This document shows, one piece after another, positions 7,990-44,850 of a stretch of DNA of 64,000 bases; the stretch's first letter is position 1, and the number at the start of each line of letters is the position of its first letter. The notes beneath the pieces were generated by a model. That model made no database searches. It saw only the letters and a program-made list of their open reading frames with translations, and was not told where the DNA came from. Made by a program: the position numbers and the translations under genes. Origin of the DNA: Acidobacteriota bacterium (GTDB taxonomy: Bacteria > Acidobacteriota > Blastocatellia > UBA7656); the NCBI GenBank assembly GCA_016201275.1, contig JACQDB010000107.1:1-64000 (forward strand), in the 5' to 3' direction.

Positions 7990-8379
7990 CTCGGCTTGGT
8001 ACAAGTTGAGATCGGGCAACCCCAATCAAGAACTGACGTTGCGGTTCGCGCCGGGAATGATTGCACCTCAACAAACTGAGGTGCAATCATTCCAAGGGTT
8101 GAAAAAGCCAATGAAATCAGGCTGCTTTGCTGCTGAAAAAACTACCAACGGAAAGCCGAGGCGGTTAGGGAATTCGCTTGAATCCCCCCAACGGCAGTTG
8201 GAGGATTCGTTTCTCGTTGGCAGCGTTGCGTAGGTTGAATTTTAACTATCCCCCGATTTCCATCGGGGGGATTGGTAGAGGTTGCGCGGCGTTGCGTAGG
8301 TTGGACTTTAAGCATCCCCCAACGGTAGTTGGGGGGATTGACCAGGCTGCTTCGCCTCTGAAAAATGTACCCAGTCGAG
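7990..8379 (+). repeat. Hairpin-array repeat X, copy X1
   Basis: About 390 bp. Left end resembles that of the copy at 41459. A 5' hairpin (8053-8092) is followed by a conserved spacer (GTTGAAAAAGCC ... CTGCTGAAAAA). Two CCCCC-NNN/NNN-GGGGG hairpins come next (about 8249-8271 with GAT/ATC stem tips, and 8315-8337 with AAC/GTT tips) plus a weaker one near 8185. The right end carries GAAAAATGTAC...GTCGAG. It fills the gap between the TonB receptor and the convergent glycosyltransferase. Short open frames inside it are composed of repeat and are not genes. Confidence 0.75.
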
Positions 8380-18616: not shown

Positions 18617-19013
18617 AACTACCCAGCTCTCTTTGCCCCGCAAGGGCGTAGGAGATTAGCCAGTGCTGTAGGCACTGGAATCATGTTGGGCAGAGGCGGC
18701 GCGCCCTGAAAGGGTGCAGGAGAGGCGACGCTGCAAGCCTCCGGCGCTCTTCCAGAGCGCGACCGTCAAGCCGCTTTCGCCTTCCCGTGGCTTCACCACG
18801 GGCTAATTTCCTCTGCGCCTCTGGCGCAAAAACGAATTCCCGTGGCGCTACCACGGGCTACTCTCCTGTGCGCCGACGGCGCAAAACTAAGGGAGTTGGA
18901 AGAAAATATAATTCCATCATTCCCGTTGAGCAGCGGTCTCTGACCGCTGGCTTGGCTGTGCGCCGATGGCGCAAAACCAAGCGACCGGCAATTTTCAAAC
19001 TGGCTGGGTCGTG
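18617..19013 (+). repeat. Composite hairpin repeat, copy A
   Basis: About 397 bp, same order of parts as the copies at 25443 and 38556. It has short palindromes in series: GCCAGTGC-TGTAG-GCACTGG, CGCCCTGAAAGGG, GCGCTCTTCCAGAGCGC, CCCGTGGCTTCACCACGGG (twice), TGCGCCTCTGGCGCA variants (three) and TTGAGCAGCGGTCTCTGACCG. Ends are inverted (CTACCCAGC at left, GGCTGGGTCG at right). The 900-base gap 18504-19403 holds this repeat, two further inverted-repeat elements and no gene. A partial stem at 18536-18595 (GTTTAGCGGC...GCCGCTAAAC) may end the kinase transcript. Confidence 0.75.
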
Positions 19014-25442: not shown

Positions 25443-25903
25443 ACTACCCAGCCCTCTTTGCCCCGCAAGGGCGTAGGAGATTAGCCAGTGCTGTAGGCAC
25501 TGGAATCATGTTGGGCAAACGCGGCGCGCCCTGAAAGGGTGCAGGAGAGGCGACGCTGCAAACTTCCTGCGCTCTTCCAGAGCGCGACCGTCAAGCCGCT
25601 TTCGCCTTCCCGTGGCTTCACCACGGGCTAATTTCCTCTGCGCCTCTGGCGCAAAAACTAATTCCCGTGGCGTTACCACGGGCTACTCTCCTGTGCGCCT
25701 ACGGCGCAAAAATGGCAATGCAGCGGCGCGCATCCTCTCAGCGGTAATCTCCTGTGCGCCGATGGCGCAAAAACTAAGGGAGTCGGAAGAAAATAGAATC
25801 CCCTGATTCCCATTGAGCAGCGCTCTCTGACCGCTGACTTGGCTGTGCGCCGATGGCGCAACAACGAAGCGACTGGCAATTTTCAAACCGGCTGGATCGT
25901 GAC
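25443..25903 (+). repeat. Composite hairpin repeat, copy B
   Basis: About 461 bp, the longest copy, with an extra CCCGTGGCGTTACCACGGG/TGCGCCTACGGCGCA pair. It is followed by GTGACATTGGACTAAATAAAG and a hairpin of CCTGTAC..GTACAGG type (25924-25962), which also follows copy A at 19034 and sits inside the element at 37250. It fills the 25415-26094 gap before the aminotransferase; short open frames within are repeat sequence. Confidence 0.75.
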
Positions 25904-38555: not shown

Positions 38556-38963
38556 CGACCCAGCCCTCTTTGCCCCGCAGAGGCGTAGGAGAGTAGCCAG
38601 TGCGGTAGGCACTGGCTTCAAGTTGAGCAAATTCTTCGCGCCCTGAAAGGGTGCAGGAGATGGATGGTCGCAAGCCTCCGGCGCTCTTCCAGAGCGCGAC
38701 CTTCAAGCTGCTTTCGCCTTCCCGTGGCTTCACCACGGGCTAATCTCCTGTGCGCCTCTGGCGCAAAAACTAAGGGAGTCGGAAGAAAATAGAATCCCCT
38801 GATTCCCGTTGAGCAGCGGTCTGTGACCGCTGGCTAAGGGAGTCGGAAGAAAATAGAATCCCCTGATTCCCGTTGAGCAGCGGTCTGTGACCGCTGGCTT
38901 GGCTGTGCGCCGACGGCGCAACAACGAAGCGACCGGCAATTTTCACACCGGCTGGGTAGTCAC
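38556..38963 (+). repeat. Composite hairpin repeat, copy C
   Basis: About 406 bp, starting CGACCCAGCCCTCTTTGCC and ending CCGGCTGGGTAGTCAC. It contains a tandem duplication of a 58-60 base unit (CTAAGGGAGTCGGAAGAAAA ... GACCGCTGGCT, at about 38770-38834 and 38835-38898) that copies A and B have once. Followed by CTTTTAC-type heptamers (38963-38982) before the plsY stop. No gene inside. Confidence 0.75.
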
Positions 38964-41247: not shown

Positions 41248-41259
41248 ATAACTATAGAG

Positions 41260-41349
41260 GCGGCACACCAAGATTCGATATGAGCGCCGCGACGAGAGGA
41301 ACATTCATGCGGTGCGCCAAGTTTCATCTCCCGAATCTTGGTGTGTCGC
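41260..41349. mobile_element. 90-bp inverted-repeat element
   Basis: 41260-41277 (GCGGCACACCAAGATTCG) and 41332-41349 are inverted copies with one mismatch. No gene inside. It is directly followed by MITE M3 and may be a relic of another small element. Confidence 0.45.
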
Positions 41350-41354
41350 GCATA

Positions 41355-41456
41355 TAAAGCGTGTCGCAGAATTCCAGCGATAGCCTATATATTGTGGATG
41401 GTTACACCGTCACATACGATATATGGATAGAAACCTCATTTATGCGACACCCTCTA
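41355..41456 (+). mobile_element. TA-flanked MITE, copy M3
   Basis: 102 bp including TA ends; AAGCGTGTCGCAGAATTCC at left and GCGACACCCTC at right, core GGTTACACCGTC. Same length and orientation as M2 and M4. It lies three bases from the left end of repeat X2. Confidence 0.7.
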
Positions 41457-41458
41457 AC

Positions 41459-42076
41459 CTCGACTTTGTACATTTTGAGATTGGACAACACCAATCAAGA
41501 GCTGACGTTGCGGTTCGCGCTTGGAATTATTGAACCTCACCTCAACAAGCAGAGGTTCGATAATTCCAAGGGTTGAAAAAGCCGATGAAATCAGACTGCT
41601 TCGCCGCTGAAAAATCTAGCAATGGAGGGCCGAGGCAGTTAGGCAATTCGTCTGAATCCCCCAACGGGAGCCGAGGCAGTGAGGCCATTCGTCTGAATTC
41701 CCCAACGGAAAGTCGAAGCGGTTTGGCCATTCATCGGAATCCCCCCAACTGCCGTTGGGGGATGCTTAAAGTCCAGCCTACACACCCAGCAAGCAAAGTT
41801 TTTTTGCAATCCCCCCAACTGCCGTTGGGGGAAGGTTAAAGTCCAGCCTTGAGCCTCGGGCAAGGTTGGACTTTAACTATCCCCCGCTTGCCATCGGGGG
41901 GATTTGTTTCTCGTTGGCAGCGTTTCGTAGGTTGGACTTTAACTATCCCCCAACTACCGTTGGGGGGATTGGTTGAGGTTGCACGGTGTTTCGTAGGTTG
42001 GATTTTAACCATCCCCCGACTGCCGTCGGGGGGATTGGCAAGCTCGGCTCGCCTCTGAAAAATGTACAAAATCGAG
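41459..42076 (+). repeat. Hairpin-array repeat X, copy X2
   Basis: 618 bp. Termini CTCGACTTTGTACATTTT and the inverted AAAATGTACAAAATCGAG. A 5' hairpin (41522-41568) is followed by a spacer shared with X1 and five CCCCC..GGGGG hairpins near 41740, 41810, 41880, 41946 and 42012, spaced 70, 70, 66 and 66 bases. Stem tips differ between units but mostly pair (AAC/GTT, GAC/GTC). The first two units are inverted relative to the last three. 42077-42112 is a fragment of the right end of the composite repeat. The whole 41132-42281 gap is made of such elements. Confidence 0.8.
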
Positions 42077-42281
42077 CTAAGCGACCGGCAATATTCAACC
42101 AGGTTGGGCAGATATTTTTTTATCTGCTGGCCTCGGTCTCCTGAAGAGCGCGGCGATTTTTTCGCGCTATCTTGATGCAGCGGTTTTCAATCACTAGACC
42201 TCTGATGTAGGGTTGAGCGGTGGGCTGCAAGGTTTTGATAAAGCCTTCGCGCCGCCAGAGTTTCCGGCAAAGGAGAAGAGG

Positions 42282-44697: not shown

Positions 44698-44850
44698 GGT
44701 TATTGGTTATTGGTTACTGGTTATTGGTTACTGGTTACTGGTTACTGGTTTTTCGGCGACCTTGCTGATGTACAGCGAATACCAATAACCAGTAATCAAT
44801 AACCAATAACCAGTAACCAGTAACCAATAACCAGTAACCAGTAACCAAAT
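44698..44850. repeat. Heptamer tandem repeat arranged as a large palindrome
   Basis: Seven GGTTATT/GGTTACT units (44698-44746) face nine or ten AACCAATA/CCAGTA-type heptamers (44781-44850) across a loop of about 30 bases. Heptameric short tandem repeats (STRR) are known from cyanobacteria; here two arrays are inverted so the transcript could fold into one long hairpin. The right edge overlaps the stop codon of the aldo/keto reductase gene. Confidence 0.75.

Follow-up and report, generated by a model that had tools for sequence, protein, structure and literature searches.

A non-coding, MITE-like composite element of 618 bp that carries an array of REP units occupies positions 41459-42076, on the forward strand, of the 64,000-nucleotide stretch of Acidobacteriota DNA analyzed here (the window; genome G000). 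Its ends are terminal inverted repeats, with CTCGACTTTGTACATTTT on the left (41459-41476, forward strand) and a right copy on the reverse strand (42059-42076) that reads AAAATGTACAAAATCGAG on the forward strand. Directly outside them lie target-site copies, CTAAC at 41454-41458 and CTAAG at 42077-42081, that differ at one position. The interior includes a left-arm palindrome (CTTGGAATTATTGAACCTC and onward, 41520-41570) that is found in most copies of the element, and three forward-strand 41-bp repeats (beginning GCCGAGGCAGTTAGGC and ending CCCCCAACGG, 41629-41750), of which other elements have one to three. A second, shorter composite element of 390 bp lies on the forward strand at 7990-8379, with the flanks CTGAT and TTGAT.

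Five REP units form the main array. Units 1 (41738-41781, foot GTAG) and 2 (41808-41851, foot CAAG) are on the reverse strand, and units 3 (41861-41904, foot CAAG), 4 (41927-41970, foot GTAG) and 5 (41993-42036, foot GTAG, stem tip GAC/GTC) are on the forward strand, such that units 2 and 3 form the center. Two more forward-strand units reside in the second element at 8230-8273 (tip GAT/ATC) and 8296-8339. A search pattern composed of the linker and stem base begins matching at 41777(-), 41847(-), 41865(+), 41931(+) and 41997(+) in the main array, and at 8234(+) and 8300(+) in the pair. These seven matches compare with none in 100 dinucleotide shuffles of the window. The first-pass annotation had described five hairpins here and two in the distant segment as tandem units spaced by 66-70 bp, two of the five being inverted, with tip variants AAC/GTT, GAC/GTC and GAT/ATC. 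Indeed, all seven hairpins were matched, the measured spacing is 70 and 66 bp with an 18-bp turn-round in mid-array, units 1 and 2 are the inverted ones, and the tip variants are real. The arrays reverse direction at a center of 18-20 nt. What required correction was the extent of the unit: the hairpins stand, but each belongs to a longer conserved unit, and the array is the interior of the larger element at 41459-42076. Two things had been missed: that the units are the REPs of a specific transposase, and that the element around them has terminal inverted repeats and is flanked by target duplications.

Each unit consists of a GTAG foot, a conserved 13-nt linker (GTTGGACTTTAAC) and an 8-bp hairpin. 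Across 194 aligned copies from the genome, conservation sets in at (GT)AG, continues through the linker and hairpin, and drops past GATT. We place the unit at about 44 nt because the same boundaries appear in these copies, in genomes G004 and G005, and in a mixed set drawn from further genomes. The foot is (G)TAG in most copies and (C)AAG in the two turn-round units of each array. In single-stranded DNA folding, all hairpins of the main array except that of unit 3 give z-scores from -2.9 to -3.6 and outperform almost all shuffles. Unit 3, whose weaker pairing at the tip had already been noted near 41880, carries the mismatched tip GCT/ATC and does not stand out from its shuffles in this way (z = -1.05). 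The entire array folds with z = -10.3 relative to shuffles, as expected given that inverted copies are present. About 10 of the 194 copies have an inverted loop (GGCA-type in place of the usual TGCC), and three of these are in the window: at 41738-41781, at 41808-41851, and at 8296-8339, where the second element has GGTA. Such copies suggest that the tip of the palindrome flips in place.

Genome-wide, 388 copies were found on both strands at two or fewer mismatches, and a reversed control pattern yielded none. The sample of copies came from 40 stretches, none longer than 20 kb, that were picked around copies, and it is therefore enriched for them. The 194 copies used to assess covariation were taken without selection on pairing, because extraction that selected for pairing had pulled in thousands of spurious hairpins. 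In this set, 1421 of 1552 stem cells are Watson-Crick pairs, compared to a mean of 1272 and a maximum of 1304 among 2000 column shuffles. Similarly, 31 distinct stems from 11 other genomes of the class have 218 of 248 Watson-Crick cells (shuffle mean 185, maximum 200). Perfect stems came in ten different sequences, among them CCCCCAAC, CCCCCGAT, CCACCAAC, CCACCCAC and CCCCACAC, and in every case the opposite arm was the exact complement. The column shuffles ignore relatedness among copies, and tip changes within G000 belong mostly to two dominant haplotypes. The correlation between stem arms that the first-pass annotation had seen in seven units thus extends to the larger set, beyond all shuffles. 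The earlier reading, that the pattern reflects selection on a structure formed by RNA or by single-stranded DNA, is likewise supported, and the association with an HUH-type Y1 transposase described below favors single-stranded DNA.

The array-bearing elements of this genome share the ends CTCGACTTTGTACA(A/T)TT and range in size from 0.36 to 0.7 kb (360-709 bp, n = 36). Exact 5-bp target duplications flank 20 of the 36 (shuffle mean 2.7, maximum 8) with the consensus CTNAG, and among duplication lengths from 3 to 8 bp, 5 alone gives any. For most sampled units (185 of 206), a terminal inverted repeat is no more than 700 bp away, and 134 are inside elements with both ends. In related genomes, this terminal inverted repeat occurs at background level. 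No autonomous element longer than 1 kb with the same ends was found in 20 further places; several contigs end inside such repeats, where the assembly breaks. An 18-position segment of the window, 2024-2041, holds a solitary terminal repeat (ATGTACAAAGTCGAG) with no partner or REP units nearby, which is probably a decayed element. The interiors of elements at three loci (L027, L037, L047) contain CAGGTGCTGAAAAAGCC, which is close to the terminal repeat of a G004 element and is perhaps a relict of an older carrier.

Several other repeats were observed in the window. A small second MITE-like repeat with the ends GTGTCGCAGAATTCC and GTGTCGCATAAATG abuts the composite element at approximately 41362-41455, and a similar one is nested inside an element at locus L048. 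Also beside the composite element, at 41253-41356, is an inverted repeat (25 nt, 84%) around GGCACACCAAGATTCG. A different, 55-bp palindromic repeat (CCCGTGG..CCACGGG, TGCGCC..GGCGCA) occurs at 18760-18900 and 25590-25730 and also elsewhere in the genome, and was not found beside the Y1 genes checked. A 64-bp unit is duplicated with 100% identity at 38770-38899 and has related copies elsewhere in the genome, and seven-base tandem arrays (GGTTACT / ACCAATA-type) lie between two genes at 44698-44848.

REP arrays are also present in three other, unrelated inverted-repeat systems in two related genomes. In G005, GGTAGTGTCTTAA ends frame three arrays, with duplications of 7-8 bp (L195, 711-1063; L197, 589-1290; L199, 452-875). 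In G004, arrays are found between GGGTGCGCGTCAG ends, with a 9-bp duplication in one case, and between CAGGSTGCTGAAAAAG ends with a 4-bp duplication, CTAG (L187, 528-811; L188, 583-858; L105, 2145-3954). The latter ends also surround a G004 transposase gene, which is enclosed by the L105 element. These carrier cases are few and were chosen by inspection of clusters, and many clusters in the two genomes are without recognized ends. The pairing of REPs with MITEs may reflect capture when the MITE formed, preferential insertion, or simple hitch-hiking. At three G005 loci (L170, L194, L198), a sequence starting AGAGACTGTGTGAAAAC appears to break up REP hairpins, and is possibly an element that inserts into them.

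The genome yields eight Y1_Tnp matches, two of which are the halves of one 277-amino-acid protein. Its gene (contig C80, 24020-24850) is bounded directly by inverted REP units: the start codon comes just past one inverted unit, and the stop codon shares bases with the GTAG of the following unit. The flanks of the other six Y1 matches (about 1.5 kb, less at contig ends) contain no REP units, making the two-domain gene the only Y1 locus with adjoining units among the flanks examined in this genome. Two-domain homologues are encoded in G142, G005 (three plus a fragment), G004 (two, one apparently frameshifted), G133, G022, G132 and G145. These genes adjoin hairpin units, on both sides in most cases with enough sequence, and each gene group has its own unit sequence. 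Specifically, two of the G005 genes are associated with two different unit families. As a point against the association, the flanking hairpins in G022 are of a different type. The nearest named relatives that have the associated gene are Blastocatellia and Pyrinomonadaceae (Acidobacteriota). Among 396 genomes drawn evenly from the phylum, only three, all of this class, encode the two-domain protein at E = 1e-25 or better; a separate search within the class gave more homologues than did this sample. REP-foot counts are 222 in G000, 203 in G005 and 39 in G004; of 162 genomes of the class, 150 have none. These counts track the genes only in part, as similar units occur where no two-domain gene was detected (11 in G006, 6 in G141, 5 in G144, and also in G027), perhaps as a result of incomplete assemblies.

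Each two-domain protein is matched twice by the Pfam Y1 model and twice by the NCBIfam IS200 model. Taken alone, the halves score 71 and 77.8 bits and both pass the curated IS200 cut-off of 55 (NF033573). Scores against the REP transposase model (NF047646, cut-off 80) are 44 to 68 bits, and neither half alone passes it. In alignments with solved structures, the Tyr122 and Gln126 residues in domain 1 fall on the YIENQ helix of IS608 (Y127, Q131), and the HUH position of this domain reads DHLR (HUH to HLR). In domain 2, the HUH motif is intact (DHTH) and the tyrosine position is F. Every aligned homologue has the Tyr and Gln of domain 1, and none has the second histidine of that domain. The domain 2 HUH is kept in complete sequences. 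The domain 2 tyrosine position is F or W in most homologues; its loss is not universal, since G022 and one of the G132 copies retain Y there.

An AlphaFold2 model (pLDDT 84, pTM 0.83) gives both halves the IS200 TnpA fold, with low confidence for the Tyr helix (113-135). In comparisons by Foldseek and VIA-align, the model is much nearer to IS200/IS605 TnpA (Z = 13-16) than to the E. coli RAYT structure 4er8 (Z = 8.2). A tree of 50 rows gathers each domain type into a branch of its own (100/99), which is consistent with a single fusion event. Domain 1 is placed beside single-domain proteins, most of them with the Y---Q--HH motif, and the placement of domain 2 has support of only 72/70. The fusion, with its complementary motif losses, predicts a single-chain pseudo-dimer that would have one composite active site, formed by the domain 2 HUH motif and the domain 1 Tyr122/Gln126 helix. 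The openly accessible literature searched held no description of such a protein and nothing relevant on tandem or fused Y1 transposases.

The hairpins are probably REP repeats that serve as single-stranded DNA recognition sites for this REP-associated, two-domain Y1 (HUH) transposase, with the copies in G000 being carried by the MITE-like element. Other explanations must be weighed against this one. If the hairpins were only the passive interior of a MITE, the terminal-inverted-repeat element alone would account for the copies and the Y1 enzyme would play no part. The closeness of most units to a terminal inverted repeat, the many units inside two-ended elements, and the convincing target duplications of the element are all in keeping with this possibility. 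However, similar units in G005 and G004 reside in other, unrelated elements or lack recognized ends, and the G000 terminal inverted repeat is at background level in relatives. Moreover, the units bound Y1 genes of several genera and their stems covary across species, and we consider a purely passive role unlikely. Even less probable is that the hairpins act as RNA, as terminators, mRNA 3′ stabilizers or small RNAs. They are stable, G+C-rich and located in intergenic DNA, and REPs have such secondary roles (PMC3733652), but an Rfam scan of the window returned no match and no T-run follows the hairpins. Furthermore, their pairs are mostly Watson-Crick, the copies face either way and also make up composite arrays, and conservation reaches beyond the stem to the linker and foot.

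Alternatively, the covariation might have arisen through arm-to-arm conversion or through template switching within palindromes rather than through selection for binding, given that conversion between arms can produce paired changes without selection. The copies with an inverted loop, which look as if the hairpin tip flips, and the concentration of most G000 tip changes in two haplotypes both lend some weight to this idea. Regardless, conversion leaves unexplained the conservation of the unpaired foot and linker and the flanking of Y1 genes in several genera, and as a full account it seems doubtful, although it could operate together with the REP-transposase explanation.

Sequence comparisons provide strong evidence for the repeats, for their association with the gene and for the domain architecture of the protein, and from these we infer catalysis and mobility. 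We hypothesize that the two IS200-type Y1 domains fold as a single-chain pseudo-dimer with one active site, which would bind the extruded REP hairpin and cut near the GTAG foot or the linker while the DNA is single-stranded, for example during replication. In this manner the enzyme would spread the REP repeats. Most G000 copies would now travel as cargo of the non-autonomous element with terminal inverted repeats and 5-bp duplications, which is presumably moved in trans by a DDE-type transposase.

This arrangement resembles the REP/RAYT (TnpA-REP) systems termed REPtrons, in which a Y1 gene lies between palindromic repeats that are inverted relative to each other and have a GTAG foot (Nunvar 2010, PMC2817692; Di Nocera 2013, PMC3733652; Quentin 2018, PMC6006769). 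Hundreds of dispersed copies, repeat families specific to each enzyme, arrays in both orientations, and stem changes that stay paired are further common features. Unlike those systems, the enzyme has two Y1 domains, an IS200-like Y---Q--HH motif rather than Y---NP, and scores below the NCBIfam REP transposase cut-off. The GTAG-type foot also differs from that of classical REPs by being separated from the hairpin by the conserved 13-nt linker, and the GTAG hosts listed by Di Nocera include no Acidobacteria (PMC3733652). Thus, the system works like a RAYT system, but by motif and model score its enzyme is outside the classical RAYT class.

The IS200/IS605 TnpA proteins (IS608, ISDra2) offer a second comparison. 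Both halves of the fused protein share their fold and sequence, and the predicted site would join the HUH motif of one half with the Tyr and Gln of the other, as in the IS608 homodimer. Whereas those enzymes are single domains of about 150 amino acids, each with its own HUH and Tyr, that form homodimers with two catalytic sets, here two fused domains with complementary losses would make up a single chain with one set, and it is tied to REP arrays rather than to an IS. Domain 1 also has the Y---Q--HH motif of TnpA-Y1 subclass 1.2, whose members are single-domain proteins of about 148 amino acids with no REPs listed and generally no IS-type secondary structures (PMC6006769). Single-domain Y---Q--HH proteins are common in the class and form the tree group next to domain 1. 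The fused protein departs from this subclass in having two domains and in the REPs that adjoin its genes. The fused type was not noted by Quentin 2018, possibly since unexpectedly long proteins were discarded in that study (PMC6006769).

The carrier is like a MITE in being short and non-coding, with terminal inverted repeats, a target duplication of fixed length, and many copies. Unlike a typical MITE, its interior is a REP array that belongs to an unrelated transposase. No autonomous partner over 1 kb turned up in the 20 further places of this assembly, which breaks at repeats. The inverted REP pairs, with their paired hairpin changes, recall REPINs, in which such pairs are the apparent mobile unit (Bertels & Rainey 2011, PMC3116915), except that here the larger element, and not only the REP pair, carries the target duplication.

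How RAYTs act on REPs is unsettled, as is the reason that the RAYT of E. coli appears monomeric but IS200 TnpA needs a two-site dimer. A broader proposal is about as likely as not: this would be a natural single-chain Y1 transposase, dedicated to REPs, in which exactly one composite site has been preserved out of the two in a dimeric IS200 ancestor. Its REPs would have become cargo of unrelated MITEs repeatedly, with four kinds of terminal repeat and target duplication across three genomes, and so have gained a second means of spread. A fused enzyme from which evolution has removed one site would be a direct test of the number and arrangement of sites needed for REP processing. The case also documents REP arrays that travel inside MITEs, and it suggests a second origin of the association with REPs, in which the starting point was IS200-like enzymes and not the classical RAYTs.
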